A stretch of DNA of 64,000 nucleotides, from assembly GCF_003259315.1 (NCBI RefSeq), contig NZ_QLLT01000022.1, forward strand, positions 62,001 through 126,000, given 5' to 3'. This stretch comes from Kitasatospora sp. SolWspMP-SS2h. Lineage in GTDB: Bacteria; Actinomycetota; Actinomycetes; Streptomycetales; Streptomycetaceae. Made by a program: the position numbers and the translations under genes. The stretch's first letter is position 1. Each line of letters opens with the position of its first letter. A model generated the notes under the pieces. That model did not search any database. It was not told the origin of the DNA and saw nothing but the letters and a program-made list of their open reading frames with translations. Positions 3,215 to 17,026 of the stretch are shown here, piece by piece.

Positions 3215-4330
3215 TCACAGCGCGAGGAGCTCCTTGGTGGTGATGGTGAGCAGCTCGGGCCCGCCCTCCTCGGGAGGCCGCACCACGAGCGTGTCCTCGA
3301 TCCGGACGCCGCCCCGACCCGGGAGATGGACCCCGGGGCCGACGGTGACCGGCACGCGATTGTCCAGTTTACCCATGTCGGCGGGCCCCAGGCGCGGAGC
3401 CTCCCGGATCTCCAGGCCGATGCCGTGCCCCAGGGCGTGCACGGAGCGCTCGGCGTGGCCCGCGGCCTGGAGGATCGAGCGGGCCGCGTCGTCCGGGACG
3501 TGCTGCTCGACGCCGGGGCCGAGGGCCTCCCGGCCGGCCCGCTGGGCGTGGAAGACCAGCCGGTGCAGCTCGACCTGCCAGGCGGCGGGGGCGGCGCCGA
3601 TCACGAAGGTGCGGGCGGTGGAGATGCCGTAGCCGCGGTAGCTGGCGCCGAGCGCGACGGTGAGGAAGTCGCCCTCCTCGACCCGGCGGTCGGTGGGCTG
3701 GTGGCGCTCCAGTCCGGAGTGGGTGCCGGTGCCGACCGAGACCGGGAAGGCGGCCCGGTCGGCGCCGTGGTCGATCATCCGGCGCTCCAGCTCCATCGCC
3801 AGGTGCCGCTCGGTGCGGCCGACCAGGATGGATTCGAGCAGCTCGCCGAGGGCCTGGTCGGCGATCTCGGCGGCGATCCGCAGGTCGGCGATCTCGTGCT
3901 CGTCCTTGACCACCCGCAGCCGCTCGACCGCCCGGTCCAGGTCCAGCAGCCGGTCCGCCTGCGCCAGCCGGGCGACGGCGCGGTGCCGGGCCACCGTGAG
4001 GTCGTGCTCCTCGACGGCCAGGTCGCGCACCCGCAGCCGGGCGGCGGCCTCGGCGGCGGCGCACGCCGCGTCGGCCTCGCCGGGCACCGGCAGCCGGGTG
4101 ACCTCCGGGTCGAGCCGCCACCCGCCGCCCTCGCCGCCGCCGGGGGGCGCGGCGTCCTCGGGCAGCGCGAGCAGCGCGCGCTCGCGGGTGAGCAGCAGCG
4201 CGGCGCCCAGCGGCGGGCAGCCGGTCAGGTAGCGGACGTTGGCGGCGCGCGTGATCAGCGCGGCGTCGGCCCCGGAGGCGCTGCAGTGCTCGCGGAGGCG
4301 TTCGCGTCGTTCGGCGTGCGCGTCGGACAT
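3215..4330 (-). CDS. M24-family (aminopeptidase P-like) protein with degenerate metal site
   Basis: A 371-aa pita-bread-fold protein located directly upstream of efp on the same strand, the position where streptomycetes carry an aminopeptidase P (Xaa-Pro peptidase) homologue. The creatinase-like N-terminal domain spans about 1-140 and the M24 domain about 145-371. Aligning the family blocks by eye, of the five metal ligands only the His (H302 in GHGIGLEI) and the last Glu (E345 in [10 protein letters not shown]) remain. The two Asp positions are A226 (in [10 protein letters not shown]) and S237, and the first Glu is G331 (in VTVGPG). It may therefore be catalytically dead or use another chemistry. 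ATG start at 4330; the ribosome-binding site is weak. Confidence 0.8.
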
Positions 4331-7630: not shown

Positions 7631-7658
7631 GCGTCAGGACCGCTGGCAGCGCGGGCAC
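7631..7658. repeat. left 28-bp direct repeat (att-like copy of the nei 3' end)
   Basis: Exactly the same 28 bp as 13464-13491, which form the last 25 coding bases of nei plus 3 bp. Read on the minus strand, this copy still encodes CPRCQRS and a stop codon, the C-terminal zinc-finger end of Nei, but the sequence before it is unrelated. It is therefore a detached fragment of the gene end, as left by site-specific integration. Confidence 0.85.
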
Positions 7659-7869: not shown

Positions 7870-10800
7870 ATGGTTCACCGCCGCTCCGGACAGCGCAGCG
7901 CCACCGACCCCCTGGAGCCGCTCCTGGAGTCCTGGCAGAAGTCCCTGATCGACCTGGGCTTTCGCAACCGGCTGGTGCACTACCGTCGCGGCGGCAGACA
8001 GGCGGGCACGGACATCGCTGCCCCGGAACTGGCGCGGGTGCTGGAAGCGCTGCCCAAGGGCTGCCTGTTCGCCCCGGTACCGGAGACGAGCCCGGATGCC
8101 GGGACATCGGTCGAGCTGTTCGGATACTCCGACCCCCCGCTCACGAAGCCGACCGGAGGCCGCCCCCTCGACACACCCGCCTCTCGCACGGGCACCGGCG
8201 GGACCCGGCTCGCCCTCCGCACGACCAAGGCGACCCAGGGCGAGCAGGACAGGCACCTCAAGCGCCTGGCCACCGTGGCGCAGGAGAAGTACAACGACTT
8301 CGGCCTGTGGGTCCTGCACCTCGGTGTCGGTTTCCTACAGTGGTGGCCGGCCGCCGACGCCGATCCCGTATCCTCCCCCCTTCTGCTGGTGCCGGTACGG
8401 CTGCGCAAGTGGAAGGGCGACTCCTTCCTTCTGGAACCCAACGGGGACGAGGAGCCGAGCTTCAACCCGGCGCTAGCCGTCAAGATGGAGGAGATGGGCC
8501 TCGAATGGCCCGCTCCGGAACAGATCGACCTCACTGACGCCGTGGGCCTGTTGGAGCAGGTCCGCAGGACCGTCTCGGGCCGCACGGGGTGGCAGGTCAG
8601 CGAACGTGTGGTGCTGGATGCCTTCAACTCCAGCAAAGAGGTGATGTACCGGGACCTGCGGGACAACATGCAGAGGATCCTGGGCAGTCCGCTGGTGCGC
8701 ACCCTGGGGCTGGGCTCCGGTCCGGCCGACACCGCAGGCTGGTTCGACTTCGATCCGGTGCCGCTCGACCTGATAGACCAGAAACAACCGCCGGAGAGAG
8801 CACCGCTCGTGCTGGACGCGGACTCCTCCCAGCGCCAGTGCGTCGCCGCCGCGATCGACGGCAGGAGCTTCGTGATGGACGGCCCGCCCGGTACCGGCAA
8901 GAGCCAGACCATCACCAACATGATCGCCGGGCTCCTCGAGCAAGGGCGCAGTGTCCTGTTCGTCAGCGAGAAGGCCGCCGCGCTGGACGTGGTGCGCAAC
9001 CGCCTCGAACAGGTCGGTCTGGACGACTACGTCCTCGCCCTGCACAGCAACACCGCCAACCGCAAGCAGGTCGCACAGGAGCTGGGCCGCGCGCTCGCCG
9101 CGCCCCGCCGCTCCTTCCCCGCTGCACGTCGGGACGAGCTCCTCACCGCAGAGGAGCTGCGCCGGGAACTCTCCGGGTACGCCGCTGCGATGAACGAGCA
9201 CCACGAGGGCATGAACCGCTCCCTGCACGACGTCCTGGGCCGGGTCTCGTTGCTGCATTCCCTGCCGCAGCTCGCCCCGGAACGGGAGTTCGACGCGGTC
9301 GGCCTCACCGAGGAACTGCTGCGCGGCATCCTCGACGGCGCGCGGTGGGTTTCCCGGTCTTGGCGGCCCGCGGTGGAAGGCGAATCGTTCGTCTGGCGCG
9401 GACTCGGTGAATCCGGCGGCGAACTGAACGCCCTGGCAAGGGCCTTGGAAGACTTCGCTGGCCTGCGCGGAGCCTTGGCCCCACATGGCCCGCTACTGGA
9501 GGCCATGGGCTGGGACGGCCTCTACGACGTCGAGCGTCTGATCAACGCCATCCGGCTGGGTGCCGGTCGGCCCGCCGTCCCCCTGCCCTGGTTGACGACC
9601 GAACCGGACCGGATCACCGACGGCATCCGGATGTTCGAACGCCGGCTGGAGGCAGTGGAAACGTCCGAGCGGAAGGCCCGCGACCTGCTCGGAGCGGGCT
9701 GGGCCGAACTCGCGGATCCCCTTGCACCGGTCTCCCCCGAACCCGGGCCACAGGAACGGGCACTGACCGAGCTTGTCCCGGCCGGCCTGGACCTGGCCGA
9801 GGCCACCGCCGTACAGGTCGATGCCCTCACCAACCGGCTGACGGCCGATGCGCGGAACCTGGAACGCGCACTGCAGCAACTCGCCAACGCAGCACGCGTG
9901 TACGGCGTCCCCGCGCCGGAGACCTGCGCCCAGGGCCTGCGCTTGGTCCAGCTGACCGGTCTGTCCCTGCCGGAACAGACCCAGAAGCCTCCGGCGCAGT
10001 GGCTCACTCCCGCCGGTGCGGCCCAGGCCCGTACCGCCCTGGACCGGCTGTCCGACGTAATCGCCGATCTGCGTGCGGCCCGCGACAAGGCCCGTCGGCA
10101 GTTCACCGAGCAAGTCCTGGCGGAGACTTCGCTGGTGGATGTGGCCCAACGCTTCGCCACCGTGCATCGCTCGATCACCGCACGCCTGTCCTCCGCGTGC
10201 CGGGCCGATCGTCGTACCGTACGAACCCTGCTACCTGCGGGTGCCAAATGCACGAAGGCCGTCCTCGCCGCACTGCCGGACGCAGTCGCCTGGCAGCAGG
10301 CCCAACAGCAGCTCGAGTACGAGGGCCGCCGGAGCGGGGAGCTCCTCGGCCACTTCTGGCAGGGCGAGGAGACCGATTTCGCCTCGGCGGAGAAAGCGCT
10401 CGGCCTGGCCTCACGGGCCGCCGAACTAGCTCCGCAGGTCCTGGACCTAGAAGCGTTCCGCTCCCAGCTCGCGCACGACGGGGAACCCCGTCCGACGGCC
10501 CGCGAGGCCGCCCGGCAGGCTGGCGAATCGCTCGCCGCGTGGCGCGACTCGCTGGTCCTGCCGCCACGTCTGGGCGCGCCCGGCGAGTTGGAGGACGGTT
10601 CCCTGGCCGATGCCGTCCGTTGGAGCACCGCCCACCTGCCACCGTTGCGGGAGGCCTCCCGGTTGCTCGCGCACGTCCGTACGGTGTCCGGACACGACGA
10701 CCTGACCCTGGGGCGGGCACGCGCCGCGGTCACGGCCGCGCTGACCGCTCGGGCCGCCGACGAGGAGTTCGCCGCCCACTCCGTCGGAGACGGTGAGCTC

Positions 10801-13362
10801 CTCGACGTGCTGTACGCCGGCCGCGGCACGAAACGAACCATGCTGGAGCAGGCCTTGGCCTGGCTGCGGAGGCTGCGGGAGAACTGCCTACTCGAAGATG
10901 GGGTGTTCCCCACCGAGGCGGCCCGGATCCTCCATCGGGCGCTTCCCGACCCCGTGCTGGAAGAGGCCAGGGACTTCTGGGACCGCTCCAGCGCCAGATT
11001 GGCCGACATGTTCGACGCGTCACGTGAACGTGAACTGCGCGCTGCGCTGTCCGTGACCTCGTCGGCCGAGCTGCTGCTGTCGCTGCTGGACGGCGATCAC
11101 GGCGGACCTGACGAGTGGGCCGCTTACCAGCGAGGCCAAGGAGCCCTGGAGAAGGCCGGCCTGGGCGATCTGACCTCCCGTGCCGTCCGGGCCGGGATCA
11201 CCCCGGAGGACTTCCCGAAGGTGGTGGAGAAATCCGTATTGCGCTCCTGGACGGATCGCGTGATCCAGCGCGACCCCCGACTGGTGTGGAACCGGGCCGA
11301 GGACCGCGACGACAAGGTCGCCGCGTTCCGCGACATCGACCGCTCCCTCGCCGAACACGCCCGGACGCGGGTGGCCCGCGCCTGCGATCTGAATCGCCCC
11401 GACGCGCTCAGCAGCCCCGGCGCGAGGCTGATCCAGCACGAAGGCAAGAAGAAGATCCGGCACAAGCCCGTGCACGTGCTGCTCCGGGAGGCCGGAGCGG
11501 CGGCGCTGCGCGTCAAACCCTGCTTCATGATGAGCCCCCTGACGGTCAGCCGGTTCCTGCCGCCGGACCTCACCTTCGACGTTGTGATCTTCGACGAGGC
11601 GTCCCAGATCCTGCCGCAGGACGCGATCAACTGCGTTTACCGGGGCAAGGCCCTGATCGTGGCCGGGGACGAGAACCAGTTGCCGCCCACCGCTTTCTTC
11701 ACCGCAGGCGAGGAGGAGGACGACGACCCGTACACCGAGGACGAAGTCCCTCGGTACGAATCGCTGCTCTCCCTGGCCAAGGGCAACGGGATGCTCAAGG
11801 AGCTCTCGTTGCGCTGGCACTACCGCAGCCGGCACGAACACCTGATCGCCTTCAGCAACCGCCAGTTCTACCGGGGTGCGATGACCACCTTCCCCGGCGC
11901 GTTCTCCGAGGGCCCCGACGTGGGCGTGGCCTTCTTCCGAGCCGAGCAGGGCCTGTACCGCTCCGGTGTGGCAGCGCGCAACAACCCAGGCGAAGCCGCC
12001 GAGGTCACCCGTCGCGTCATCCACCACTTCCGCACCCGCCCGGGCCGTTCGCTGGGCGTCGTCGCGCTCTCCCAGGCCCAGGCCGAGGTGATCCGGGAGG
12101 CGGTCGACCAGGAACGCCGGCGGAACCCCGGTCTGGACGAACACTTCTCCGACGACCGGCTGGACGGTTTCTTCGTCAAGAACCTCGAAGCGGTCCAGGG
12201 CGACGAGCGCGACGTGATCATCATGTCCGTCGGCTACGGCCCCGATGAGAACGGCAAGCTCAACCAGAACTTCGGACCGATCAACCGCAAGGACGGCTGG
12301 CGGCGACTCAATGTCGCCGTCACCCGGGCCCGCTACCGGGTCGAGGTGGTCGCCTCCTTCGAGCCCGATGCCCTCCGCCCGTCCGAAAGCGCGAGCTTCG
12401 AACACTTCGCCCGCTACCTCAAGTACGCCAAGTACGGCCCGGCCGCACTCGCTCAGGACAGCGCGGACGACAACGCCCTGCCCGAGAGCCCGTTCGAGGA
12501 GTCGGTGCTGGAGGTACTACGCGGCTGGGGCTACACCGTCCAGCCTCAGGTGGGCGTCGCCGGCTACCGCATCGACCTGGGGGTGCGTGACCCTCGATGG
12601 CCTGGACGCTACGCCCTCGGGGTCGAGTGCGACGGTGCCATGTACCACTCCTCCAAGGCGGCCCGTGACCGGGACCGGCTGCGCGAATCCATGCTCACCG
12701 GTCTCGGCTGGACGCTGCACCGGATCTGGGGCACCGACTGGTACCGCAACCGGGCGGCAGCCGAGAATCGGCTACGAACCGCCGTCGAACGGGCTGCGGC
12801 CCGCAGCGCGGACACCGCTCCCCCGTCCGGGGTCGCTGCGGAGATCCCCCGAACCGCGTCCGCGCCGCACTCTCCGACGGCGGCACCCGCACTGAAGCCC
12901 TCGTCCTCCGACAGCTCGGTCCCGGCTAAGGGTGCCCTTCCGAATTCCTCCGAACAGCGCGTCCGCCACGAGTTGGAACAGTTGCGAGCACAACTGGAAC
13001 TGCACTCTGACGCGGCCGTTTCCGACTCCCGGCCCCGGGCCCGTACCGACCAGCAGCGCAGGCAGCGCGGGCTCGCCGAGCAACTGGAGGAGCGTGCCGC
13101 CCTGCTCAAGGCCTACCTGACCGGCGACCGTAGAGCTATAGCGGGCACGGTGTGCCCCGGCCGCCTGGTACGGATCGATTTCGGCGGGGACCAGCAGGAG
13201 TACGAGATCACCTCCCAGGAACCGCACTCCACCGAGGTCGAGAAGCTCAGCCCATTCACACCGCTCGGCCGGGCTCTGCACGGCCGGATGGCCGGCAACC
13301 GTATCGAGTACGAGCACGACGGACGCCGGATCACGGTGCAGCTGCTGACCGTCCGGGACTGA
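7870..13362 (+). CDS. DUF4011-SF1 helicase-Vsr-like nuclease (Hhe-like) with GreA/GreB-like C-terminus
   Basis: An 1830-aa protein; ATG 7870 has GGAG 8 nt upstream. Domains in order: DUF4011 (about 15-270; SLIDLGFRNRLVHY, LHLGVGFLQWW, SPLLLVPVRLRKW); an SF1 helicase split by a long helical insert, with Walker A GPPGTGKS (338-345), motif Ia FVSEKAAALD, DEAS (1242-1245), GDENQLPP (from 1266), RWHYRSRHE and motif VI NVAVTRAR (near 1480); an MTES_1575/Vsr-type PD-(D/E)xK nuclease (about 1540-1640) with E1545, RID1569 and VE1586CDG; then a charged coiled-coil hairpin (about 1693-1755) and a GreA/GreB-like domain (about 1764-1828; SPFTPLGRALHG). The DUF4011-helicase-Vsr architecture is that of the antiviral gene Hhe, as I recall it from published defence-gene surveys. 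An antiphage role is inferred; the Gre-like end is a further feature. Confidence 0.88.
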   Translation: MVHRRSGQRSATDPLEPLLESWQKSLIDLGFRNRLVHYRRGGRQAGTDIAAPELARVLEALPKGCLFAPVPETSPDAGTSVELFGYSDPPLTKPTGGRPLDTPASRTGTGGTRLALRTTKATQGEQDRHLKRLATVAQEKYNDFGLWVLHLGVGFLQWWPAADADPVSSPLLLVPVRLRKWKGDSFLLEPNGDEEPSFNPALAVKMEEMGLEWPAPEQIDLTDAVGLLEQVRRTVSGRTGWQVSERVVLDAFNSSKEVMYRDLRDNMQRILGSPLVRTLGLGSGPADTAGWFDFDPVPLDLIDQKQPPERAPLVLDADSSQRQCVAAAIDGRSFVMDGPPGTGKSQTITNMIAGLLEQGRSVLFVSEKAAALDVVRNRLEQVGLDDYVLALHSNTANRKQVAQELGRALAAPRRSFPAARRDELLTAEELRRELSGYAAAMNEHHEGMNRSLHDVLGRVSLLHSLPQLAPEREFDAVGLTEELLRGILDGARWVSRSWRPAVEGESFVWRGLGESGGELNALARALEDFAGLRGALAPHGPLLEAMGWDGLYDVERLINAIRLGAGRPAVPLPWLTTEPDRITDGIRMFERRLEAVETSERKARDLLGAGWAELADPLAPVSPEPGPQERALTELVPAGLDLAEATAVQVDALTNRLTADARNLERALQQLANAARVYGVPAPETCAQGLRLVQLTGLSLPEQTQKPPAQWLTPAGAAQARTALDRLSDVIADLRAARDKARRQFTEQVLAETSLVDVAQRFATVHRSITARLSSACRADRRTVRTLLPAGAKCTKAVLAALPDAVAWQQAQQQLEYEGRRSGELLGHFWQGEETDFASAEKALGLASRAAELAPQVLDLEAFRSQLAHDGEPRPTAREAARQAGESLAAWRDSLVLPPRLGAPGELEDGSLADAVRWSTAHLPPLREASRLLAHVRTVSGHDDLTLGRARAAVTAALTARAADEEFAAHSVGDGELLDVLYAGRGTKRTMLEQALAWLRRLRENCLLEDGVFPTEAARILHRALPDPVLEEARDFWDRSSARLADMFDASRERELRAALSVTSSAELLLSLLDGDHGGPDEWAAYQRGQGALEKAGLGDLTSRAVRAGITPEDFPKVVEKSVLRSWTDRVIQRDPRLVWNRAEDRDDKVAAFRDIDRSLAEHARTRVARACDLNRPDALSSPGARLIQHEGKKKIRHKPVHVLLREAGAAALRVKPCFMMSPLTVSRFLPPDLTFDVVIFDEASQILPQDAINCVYRGKALIVAGDENQLPPTAFFTAGEEEDDDPYTEDEVPRYESLLSLAKGNGMLKELSLRWHYRSRHEHLIAFSNRQFYRGAMTTFPGAFSEGPDVGVAFFRAEQGLYRSGVAARNNPGEAAEVTRRVIHHFRTRPGRSLGVVALSQAQAEVIREAVDQERRRNPGLDEHFSDDRLDGFFVKNLEAVQGDERDVIIMSVGYGPDENGKLNQNFGPINRKDGWRRLNVAVTRARYRVEVVASFEPDALRPSESASFEHFARYLKYAKYGPAALAQDSADDNALPESPFEESVLEVLRGWGYTVQPQVGVAGYRIDLGVRDPRWPGRYALGVECDGAMYHSSKAARDRDRLRESMLTGLGWTLHRIWGTDWYRNRAAAENRLRTAVERAAARSADTAPPSGVAAEIPRTASAPHSPTAAPALKPSSSDSSVPAKGALPNSSEQRVRHELEQLRAQLELHSDAAVSDSRPRARTDQQRRQRGLAEQLEERAALLKAYLTGDRRAIAGTVCPGRLVRIDFGGDQQEYEITSQEPHSTEVEKLSPFTPLGRALHGRMAGNRIEYEHDGRRITVQLLTVRD

Positions 13363-13463: not shown

Positions 13464-13491
13464 GCGTCAGGACCGCTGGCAGCGCGGGCAC
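13464..13491. repeat. right 28-bp direct repeat (within nei 3' end)
   Basis: The partner of 7631-7658. Bases 13467-13491 are the last codons of nei including its stop. The flanking bases differ from the left copy on both sides, so the identical core is exactly 28 bp. Confidence 0.85.
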
Positions 13492-14273
13492 CAGAACAGG
13501 TTCCGGGCGGCCAGCTCCTCGGTGCGGACCGGGGTGCCGCAGACCAGGCAGGGCCGGTCGTGCCGCCGGTACACGTACACCTCGCCGCCGTGGTCGTCCA
13601 CCCGCGGCGGGCGGCCCATCGCCTCCGGGGTGTGCTCGGGGCGGACGGTGTCGATCCGGCCCGCGGCCACGCCGTCGTGCATCAGCGCCACCAGGTCCGT
13701 CCAGATCGCGTCCCACTCGGCCCGGGACAGCTCGCGCCCGGGGCGGTGCGGGCTGATCCCGAGCCGGAACAGCACCTCGGCGCGGTACACGTTCCCGACG
13801 CCGGCCAGCACCTTCTGGTCCATCAGCAGCGCGGCCACCGTGCTGCCGCTGCGGGAGACCCGCCGCCAGGCCGCCTCCCCCGACTCCCCGGCCCGCAGCG
13901 GGTCCGGCCCCAGCCGGTGGTGGACGGCCGCCTTCTCCTCCGGCGTGAGCAGCTCGCAGGCGGTCGGCCCGCGCAGGTCGGCGTACCCGGTGTCGTTGAC
14001 CATCCGCAGCCGGACCTGCCCGACCGGCTCGGGCGCCTCGCCCGCCCCGAACGCGTACTTCCCGTACAGCCCCAGGTGCACGTGCAGCCAGTGCTCGCCG
14101 AAGCCCAGGAACAGGTGCTTGCCGTGCGCCTCCGCCTCGTCCAGCACCCGCCCGTCGATCAGCGCGGCCCCCTCCGCGAAGCGCCCCTGCGGGCTGGACA
14201 CCCGCACCGGGCGCCCCCCGAACAGCTCGTCGTTCTGCCTGGCCAGGCGGTGGATCACATGCCCCTCGGGCAC
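13467..14273 (-). CDS. nei: Fpg/Nei-family DNA glycosylase (endonuclease VIII, Nei1-like)
   Basis: A 268-aa bifunctional glycosylase/AP lyase for oxidised bases. The N-terminus PEGHVIHRLA supplies the catalytic Pro2 and Glu3; PEGH rather than PELP points to the Nei1 branch of actinobacteria. Further family blocks are GRVLDEAEAHGKHLFLGF, the H2TH region with VLAGVGNVYRAEVLFRLGI, and the C-terminal zinc finger CLVCGTPVRTEE...FWCPRCQRS with four Cys. The GTG start at 14273 follows GAGGAG by 12 nt. The gene end serves as the right boundary of the neighbouring accessory unit and is intact, as expected when a mobile unit restores the target gene. Confidence 0.92.
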   Translation of the reverse strand: MPEGHVIHRLARQNDELFGGRPVRVSSPQGRFAEGAALIDGRVLDEAEAHGKHLFLGFGEHWLHVHLGLYGKYAFGAGEAPEPVGQVRLRMVNDTGYADLRGPTACELLTPEEKAAVHHRLGPDPLRAGESGEAAWRRVSRSGSTVAALLMDQKVLAGVGNVYRAEVLFRLGISPHRPGRELSRAEWDAIWTDLVALMHDGVAAGRIDTVRPEHTPEAMGRPPRVDDHGGEVYVYRRHDRPCLVCGTPVRTEELAARNLFWCPRCQRS

Positions 14274-16002: not shown

Positions 16003-16195
16003 CCGCCCCTCGCCGCGCGGCGGAACCCCCGCGTACGTGCAGCGGACTCAGGACCGGGCGAACCCCGACGCGCGTGCAACCGGACCAGGTTCGCGCGGTC
16101 CGGGCCGACGGCGGCCCCCGACGCGCCCCCGCCCCTCGCCGCGCGGCGGAACCTCAGCGCGCCTGCAACCGGCTCAGGACCGCGCGGTCCAGGGC
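16003..16195. repeat. degenerate repeats of the P-loop kinase gene 3' end
   Basis: A 25-bp segment (GCCCCTCGCCGCGCGGCGGA core) occurs at 16003-16027 and 16129-16153. The last ~40 bp of the kinase gene (16154-16195, with GCAACCGGCTCAGGACC) recurs in decayed form at about 16068-16107 and about 16029-16058. The sequence between the SDR and kinase stops is therefore made largely of duplicated gene end. Confidence 0.6.
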
Positions 16196-16996
16196 CGCCG
16201 CGGTCTCTGGGACGCTCAGGTTGGAGTTGTCGATGATCGGCAGGCCGGAGGTGCGCCAGCCGGCCATCCGGCCGTGGATGCGGGCGACCTCGTCGTCGGA
16301 GAGGCGGCGGTTGCCGGAGCGTTCGGCGTTGCGGGCGAGGACGCGGTCGAGGCCGGGGAGCAGGACGACGGGGATCATGCCGGGGCCGATGTGGCGCTTC
16401 CAGCCGCCGAGGCCGATCGCGGGGCGGTCGGGGAAGACCGCGTCGTCGATGATGCAGGAGATGCCGTTGGCGAGGTAGTTGCGGCAGGCGAAGCCGCAGG
16501 TGCGGCGGGCCAGCCGGTACTGGGCCTCGGAGGCGGTGTTCCAGCCGGACTGCGGGTTGGCGAAGCCGGACTGGACCCACTCGCGGACGTCGTCGAGGCT
16601 GATGTGCGCGGTGGGGGTGGGGCGGCGTTCGGCCCAGTACCGGGCGACGGTGGTCTTGCCAGCGCCGGCCGGGCCGATCAGCAGGACGGCGACCGGGCCG
16701 GGCAGCGGGGCGGGGAACGCGGGCTGCTGCGGTGGCGGGGCGGGCAGTTGGACGGTGCCTCCGGTCGGGAGCAGGAAGTGGCCGGTGCCGCCGGGCGCGA
16801 CCGGGCCGACGGCCTTCAGCGGGACGGTCGGGCGGTCCGGCCGGGGCGCGGCCGGCCCCAGGGTGGGGATCGCCTGGGTGGCGCCGGGCAGGGCCGGTGC
16901 GGGGTACGGCGGCTGAGGGCCCGTCGGCTGCGGGGACACCGCAGGTCGTGGTGGCACCTGGCCCCCCGCGTGCTGGTTCTGCGCGTACTGGCTCAC
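16154..16996 (-). CDS. P-loop ATPase/kinase with Pro-rich N-terminus
   Basis: A 280-aa protein of unknown role. The N-terminal ~100 residues are Pro/Gly/Ala-rich and probably disordered. The C-terminal domain is a nucleoside/polynucleotide-kinase-like P-loop module: Walker A GPAGAGKTTVARYW, then HISLDDVREWVQSG, CIIDDAVFPDRP (Walker B-like) and an Arg-rich lid with RNAERSGNRRLSDDEVARIHGRM. GTG 16996 is chosen because GGGAGG lies 5 nt upstream; the next in-frame GTG two codons earlier overlaps that site. It follows the aro operon terminator, so it has its own promoter. Confidence 0.8.
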   Translation of the reverse strand: MSQYAQNQHAGGQVPPRPAVSPQPTGPQPPYPAPALPGATQAIPTLGPAAPRPDRPTVPLKAVGPVAPGGTGHFLLPTGGTVQLPAPPPQQPAFPAPLPGPVAVLLIGPAGAGKTTVARYWAERRPTPTAHISLDDVREWVQSGFANPQSGWNTASEAQYRLARRTCGFACRNYLANGISCIIDDAVFPDRPAIGLGGWKRHIGPGMIPVVLLPGLDRVLARNAERSGNRRLSDDEVARIHGRMAGWRTSGLPIIDNSNLSVPETAAALDRAVLSRLQAR

Positions 16997-17026
16997 CGTC
17001 ACCTCCCTGCGCCGAATGTACACGTC

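Follow-up and report, generated by a model that had tools for sequence, protein, structure and literature searches.

P0001, a protein encoded in the 64,000-nucleotide stretch of DNA analysed here (hereafter, the window), joins a DUF4011 domain, an SF1 helicase and an MTES_1575 nuclease to a C-terminal module of the Gre type. The reading preferred here, which is given about an even chance, is that P0001 is an anti-phage helicase–nuclease recruited via RNA polymerase, with both the binding and the defence role being putative. The natural swap of a tail presumed to read DNA for a module predicted to dock on RNA polymerase, in two families, would make it testable how large helicase–nuclease defences choose foreign DNA. 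If true, bacterial immunity would be tied to the transcription machinery via the well-understood Gre site on beta'.

Domain layout and identity of the tail

The gene and its parts are arranged in the window as follows:

7870..13362, + strand: P0001 gene, 1830 aa, from ATG start to stop (DUF4011, SF1 helicase, MTES_1575 nuclease, Gre-like module)
7945..8484, + strand: DUF4011, residues 26-205 (Pfam PF13195, 2.8e-20)
8821..9012, + strand: AAA_11, the N-terminal SF1 helicase part, residues 318-381 (Pfam)
8881-8910, + strand: Walker A, GPPGTGKSQT, within AAA_11 (motif inspection)
11581..11610, + strand: Walker B / DExx box, VVIFDEASQI, residues 1238-1247 (motif inspection)
11761..12357, + strand: AAA_12, the C-terminal SF1 helicase part, residues 1298-1496, motifs IV-VI intact (Pfam)
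12493..12783, + strand: MTES_1575 (Vsr-fold) nuclease, residues 1542-1638 (Pfam PF18741, 3.1e-37)
12784..12939, + strand: low-complexity linker from nuclease to Gre module (sequence)
12949..13122, + strand: short helical hairpin (residues 1694-1751) corresponding to the Gre coiled coil, tip rewritten (AlphaFold2 and alignment)
13144..13356, + strand: GreA/GreB C-terminal (FKBP-like) domain, residues 1759-1829 (Pfam, NCBIfam and fold matches)
13246..13284, + strand: loop LSPFTPLGRALHG (alignment)
13258-13260, + strand: codon of T1797, at the position of MtbGre S127 (alignment)

Pfam domains and motif inspection agree with the DUF4011–SF1 helicase–Vsr layout that the initial annotation had proposed. 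Walker A, Walker B and motifs III-VI of the helicase are all intact, as are the E/D/ExD/H residues of the nuclease (D1569, E1586-x-D1588 and H1593), and the single chain unites DUF4011, SF1 helicase motifs and the MTES_1575 nuclease, the combination by which the PDC-S37-like superfamily is recognised. The candidate system PDC-S37 is the best PADLOC match (1107 bits), with Hhe (PDLC02194) at 538 bits, and the NCBIfam models ProA (NF058533, named there as an anti-phage protein) and Hhe (NF042953) reach 1021.6 and 782 bits, below their NCBI curated cut-offs of 1500 and 2000 bits, respectively, so that membership in Hhe is rejected by score. Judged by these models, P0001 is a relative of ProA/PDC-S37 and Hhe that lies nearer to ProA/PDC-S37 and is a strict member of neither ProA nor Hhe. 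The earlier label of an Hhe-like protein therefore holds for the layout but not for Hhe itself, since PDC-S37 and ProA score higher.

The tail is matched by Gre models of both Pfam and NCBIfam. Pfam GreA_GreB (PF01272) matches at 5.7e-4 in the full protein and 1.4e-5 in the tail alone, slightly below the Pfam cut-off of 26.9 bits (25.4 bits for the isolated tail and 26.8 bits in a whole-genome scan, in which the match is marked as above the cut-off jointly with in-frame neighbours), and the NCBIfam GreA model NF001262 matches the tail at 3.5e-9. Moreover, Gre models (Pfam GreA_GreB, best 8e-8, and NCBIfam GreA) match 12 of 12 related tails in isolation, and a profile built from the tails recovers Thermus Gfh1, matched along almost the entire protein. 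AlphaFold2 models the P0001 tail as a two-helix hairpin (helices 10-31 and 38-67 in fragment numbering) plus a beta domain, with a pLDDT of 82. The top Foldseek matches of this model at E < 0.002 are GreA, Gfh1, GreB, Rnk and HelD, the last through its Gre-like domain, and all of them are RNA polymerase secondary-channel proteins. VIA-align gives Z values of 9.3 for GreA, 8.5 for GreB, 7.7 for Gfh1, 6.4 for HelD and 5.7 for Rnk, of which those below 8 are indecisive alone and are here consistent with the sequence evidence. On these profiles and this model, the assignment of the tail as a Gre-type hairpin plus C-terminal domain is secure. It agrees with the initial annotation, which had read the last ~140 residues as a coiled-coil hairpin and a GreA/GreB-like domain and had named GreA, GreB and Rnk, all three matched here, as the folds to compare. 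A chance match is excluded because the methods agree and the tail is conserved across genomes of the family. As a separate GreA is encoded in the genome, a role of the fusion as substitute for the host GreA was rejected.

Tail exchange, distribution and mobility

Of 395 sampled Streptomycetaceae genomes, 27 contain the module when searched with a profile of the tail. Nearly always it terminates an open frame of ~1700-2140 aa; the copies that depart from this are frameshifted or lie at a contig end. In a phylum-wide sample of 396 genomes, the fusion occurs in Streptomycetaceae only, among the matches examined. The initial annotation had guessed that similar actinobacterial fusions exist and had held that absence from all homologues, as in an assembly artefact, would count against the fusion; the 27 genomes, some of them with the same fusion in other DUF4011 proteins, bear out the guess and dispose of the artefact. 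Open frames of 768-1062 aa outside Streptomycetaceae were rejected as candidates, the one inspected (G499) clustering with GreA proteins in the tree, and no Gre-tailed copy was found on a phage or plasmid at an identity of at least 60%.

All Gre-tailed DUF4011 proteins fall into a single clade (SH-aLRT 100), and most other members of the surrounding family end in a winged-helix tail. Pfam calls DUF3320 in the tails of 5 of 5 Gre-less relatives scanned, and a Gre-less relative, L052, matches the ProA model right up to its final position, 1903, whereas P0001 stops at 1755 and lacks the DUF3320-bearing positions 1755-1903. Because the Gre-less relatives carry DUF3320 and reach the end of the model that P0001 leaves early, the Gre module is, by profile fit and phylogeny, a replacement of the DUF3320 winged-helix tail with a single origin. 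Thus, the domain described earlier as fused is indeed so, but by exchange and not by simple addition. Two Paractinoplanes DUF4011 helicase–nucleases (L054 and L055) have nothing beyond the nuclease, neither DUF3320 nor Gre, and the tail therefore seems exchangeable, even dispensable.

In 16 of the 27 genomes, the module is carried by a different protein with an SF1 helicase and an MTES_1575 nuclease but without DUF4011, which is ~26% identical to P0001 across the helicase–nuclease part. The Gre-less relatives of this second family (34-39% identical to its Gre-tailed members) mostly stop in a short post-nuclease tail, and the model of its Gre tail is weaker (pLDDT 73), with the same top fold matches. 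The core tree requires two gains of Gre tails, a third counted change (L180) being a frameshifted allele. In the Gre-domain tree, all 31 tails group together, apart from 51 GreA proteins (100/100 support), and the second-family tails are nested among those of the first family with moderate support (75-93); an AU test gave p 0.015 against a single tail clade, a value that is not usable, as the tail rows L050 and L057 were entered as GreA. The simplest account of these trees would be that a GreA-like domain was captured once and passed once from one helicase–nuclease family to the other, in a direction that is tentative.

In three genomes (G191, G173 and G049), the second-family Gre-tailed protein lies directly downstream of, or ~6 kb from, the sole rpoBC operon, at the following loci:

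L185:83-7548: second-family locus near rpoBC
L186:11847-19312: second-family locus near rpoBC
L184:17067-19871: second-family locus near rpoBC

This proximity may reflect an inherited insertion site, and its link to RNA polymerase is suggestive.

The P0001 gene lies on 5.8 kb of inserted DNA that separates DUF6445 from fpg, with these boundaries:

7631..7658, + strand: left copy of an att-like repeat (28 bp, direct, exact) at the edge of the insert
13464..13491, + strand: right copy of the 28-bp direct repeat, in the fpg 3' end, bounding the insert
13467-14273, - strand: fpg, containing the right repeat at its 3' end

The corresponding site is empty in a relative (G143, L210), where a single repeat copy is found and DUF6445 is adjacent to fpg. 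The P0001 gene has a GC3 of 0.85, against 0.94-0.99 in most neighbours, and no integrase or recombinase gene was found within the 5.8-kb insert. The repeats, the empty site and the low GC3 are the grounds on which the gene is read as mobile, and the arrangement suggests that a cargo of one gene was inserted at a specific site. The same insertion is present in L114 (G081, same species), where a 1-nt difference in a G run at about gene nt 4008 shifts the frame at residue 1336, as a result of either decay or an error in sequencing. In L048 and L057, too, the gene is split into several frames.

No defence island around the P0001 gene was found in the window, where its neighbours (EF-P, peptidase M24, HTH-cupin, EamA, DUF6445, Fpg, TetR and an epimerase) are housekeeping or ordinary genes. 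A small P-loop kinase-like protein with zeta toxin similarity (Pfam 1.9e-5) and no PADLOC match is encoded at 16154-17023 (- strand). Among the relatives, DrmA (7.6e-298) and GmrSD-like genes lie near second-family members, L036 contains DrmA and DrmB, a type IIG restriction-methylation gene adjoins L039 and its homologues adjoin L040 and L116, and L037 has a pPIWI-RE helicase and JetC2 (Wadjet) as neighbours. By homology clustering, at least one gene of these systems (DISARM, type IIG RM, GmrSD-like, pPIWI-RE or Wadjet) is present at 16 of the 27 Gre-tailed loci; this raw count is the outcome of the scoring of neighbours proposed at the outset. When PADLOC was run again on ten more neighbours, little was found. 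The common second-family neighbourhood (L174:3622-19589, similar in L175-L179, L112 and L113) consists of a GmrSD-like gene carrying an extra alkyltransferase-type DNA-binding domain, a gene of ~280 aa without a Pfam match, a GajB/UvrD-like helicase and a DrmA-like helicase, and could be one composite defence system.

These distributions bear on a role in genome maintenance tied to transcription, in which P0001 would act in the manner of HelD, UvrD or Mfd and clear stalled polymerase or R-loops instead of serving in defence. HelD, which is SF1 helicase-like and bears a Gre-like arm, recycles RNA polymerase (PMC7749165, PMC7749160) and is among the fold matches of the tail, and the three loci beside or near rpoBC would fit such a role. 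However, the patchy presence among the sampled genomes, the insertion footprint, the frameshifted alleles, the defence-gene neighbours and the nuclease domain, which is absent from HelD, speak against it and point to an accessory conflict gene, making maintenance a very improbable function.

Docking loop and proposed mechanism

In the Gre factor of M. tuberculosis (MtbGre), S127 of the C-terminal loop is required for RNA polymerase binding, and the S127E substitution abolished both activity and pull-down (PMC3132773). The loop of P0001 reads LSPFTPLGR and places a Thr (T1797) at this position, which gives it a counterpart of the Gre binding loop and predicts polymerase binding. Across the alignment, S-P is found in 17 of 17 tails and S-P-x-[S/T] in 16 of 17, Ala stands in place of S/T in the close relative L048, and the Pro after S/T is not conserved (11 of 17). 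The hairpin is present in all tails and shorter than that of GreA. Its tip does not retain the GreA motif GDLKEN..Y: the E44 position is R/K in 17 of 17 tails, the Tyr position is deleted, and the catalytic Asp is aligned to Asp in 13 of 17, in a gapped region where the alignment is uncertain. The E. coli GreA row of this alignment serves as a yardstick, and Streptomyces GreA rows taken from genomes share the motif. P0001 thus has neither the acidic tip nor the long coiled coil of a Gre cleavage factor. A loss of cleavage is likely but not proven, since MtbGre E46R retained activity (PMC3132773), and some remaining cleavage activity is possible, since most tails keep the Asp. Mycobacterial HelD likewise has no DXX(E/D) tip (PMC7749160). 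With its contact loop kept, its hairpin short and the GreA catalytic tip rewritten, the Gre module of P0001 looks like a docking part and not a cleavage factor.

The same features can be read differently, namely as a Gre-like fold reused as an FKBP-like protein–protein or regulatory domain that folds onto the nuclease or binds a partner and makes no contact with RNA polymerase. The shortened hairpin with its rewritten tip and the variable Pro are compatible with such reuse, and FKBP-type domains, SlyD among them, match the globular half of the tail (Z about 5). Nevertheless, the best matches are all secondary-channel factors, the tails have retained the contact loop S-P-x-[S/T]-x-L, and every one has the hairpin, so that reuse of this kind appears unlikely.

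Under the preferred reading of recruitment via RNA polymerase, P0001 would be a mobile defence enzyme of the DUF4011 (ProA/PDC-S37/Hhe) type in which a Gre-like module has been swapped in for the DUF3320 tail. The Gre globular domain would most likely dock at the rim of the RNA polymerase secondary channel, where the short hairpin would anchor the module without transcript cleavage. RNA polymerase would in turn carry the helicase to DNA that is being transcribed or on which transcription has stalled, such as early phage genes or sites of transcription-replication collision, and ATP-driven translocation would feed this DNA to the MTES_1575 nuclease. In this scheme, we infer RNA polymerase binding, target choice, DNA cleavage and phage protection by P0001. 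Alternatively, the Gre domain could serve for sensing, with P0001 waiting on RNA polymerase and being released or activated once a phage protein seizes or blocks the polymerase. This guard-like behaviour would draw on the same docking evidence, the low-complexity linker between the nuclease and the Gre module would suit release, and secondary-channel factors compete for one site (PMC4598747). The sequence, however, gives nothing to tell sensing from targeting, and the family has no known phage inhibitor or trigger, which leaves sensing quite improbable as the main function.

Recruitment via RNA polymerase is supported by the Gre identity of the tail, the DUF3320 swap, the second recruitment, the kept loop, the defence neighbours, the mobility and the host's own GreA, and is weakened by the housekeeping neighbours in the window, the Ala of L048, the confinement of the clade to Streptomycetaceae and the Asp at the tip of most tails. 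A wider proposal, which is put somewhat short of even, is a transcription-coupled restriction class in which two distant SF1 helicase–nuclease families share a GreA-derived docking module and RNA polymerase guides anti-phage DNA interference.

Comparison with known systems

The initial annotation knew of no described defence protein with this arrangement, and a Gre module joined to a defence helicase–nuclease was not found described in the literature searched, whose coverage excludes most subscription journals and does not establish priority. The claim needs narrowing in one respect: a helicase with a Gre arm is not new per se, because HelD is known. What has not been found described is a Gre-docked form of a known kind of helicase–nuclease, reached via tail exchange and present on two families.

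In HelD, as in P0001, an SF1 helicase-like part is combined with a Gre-like domain, which in HelD reaches into the secondary channel of RNA polymerase. However, HelD is a transcription recycling factor with an N-terminal Gre-like arm and an SF1 core that has no DUF4011 and no nuclease, whereas the Gre module of P0001 is C-terminal and MTES_1575 is present. GreA/GreB, Gfh1, Rnk and Rv3788 share the hairpin, the FKBP-like fold and the docking loop with the P0001 tail, but they are small free-standing factors, while the tail is fused; GreA differs further in its longer hairpin and its catalytic tip motif. The giant proteins of the MTES_1575 type described by Anantharaman et al. (2013, PMC3710099) likewise contain an SF1 helicase and an MTES_1575 Vsr-type nuclease. 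They carry HEPN/transglutaminase domains and a wHTH pair overlapping DUF3320, proposed to recognise invading DNA, whereas P0001 has no wHTH and a Gre module. Hhe also unites DUF4011, an SF1 helicase and a Vsr-like nuclease in a single protein, but a Gre domain was not found described for it. Finally, ProA/PDC-S37 provides the best-scoring models across the DUF4011–helicase–nuclease part, and the difference lies in the tail: the last ~150 positions of the ProA model are the DUF3320 winged-helix tail, in the place of which P0001 carries the Gre module.
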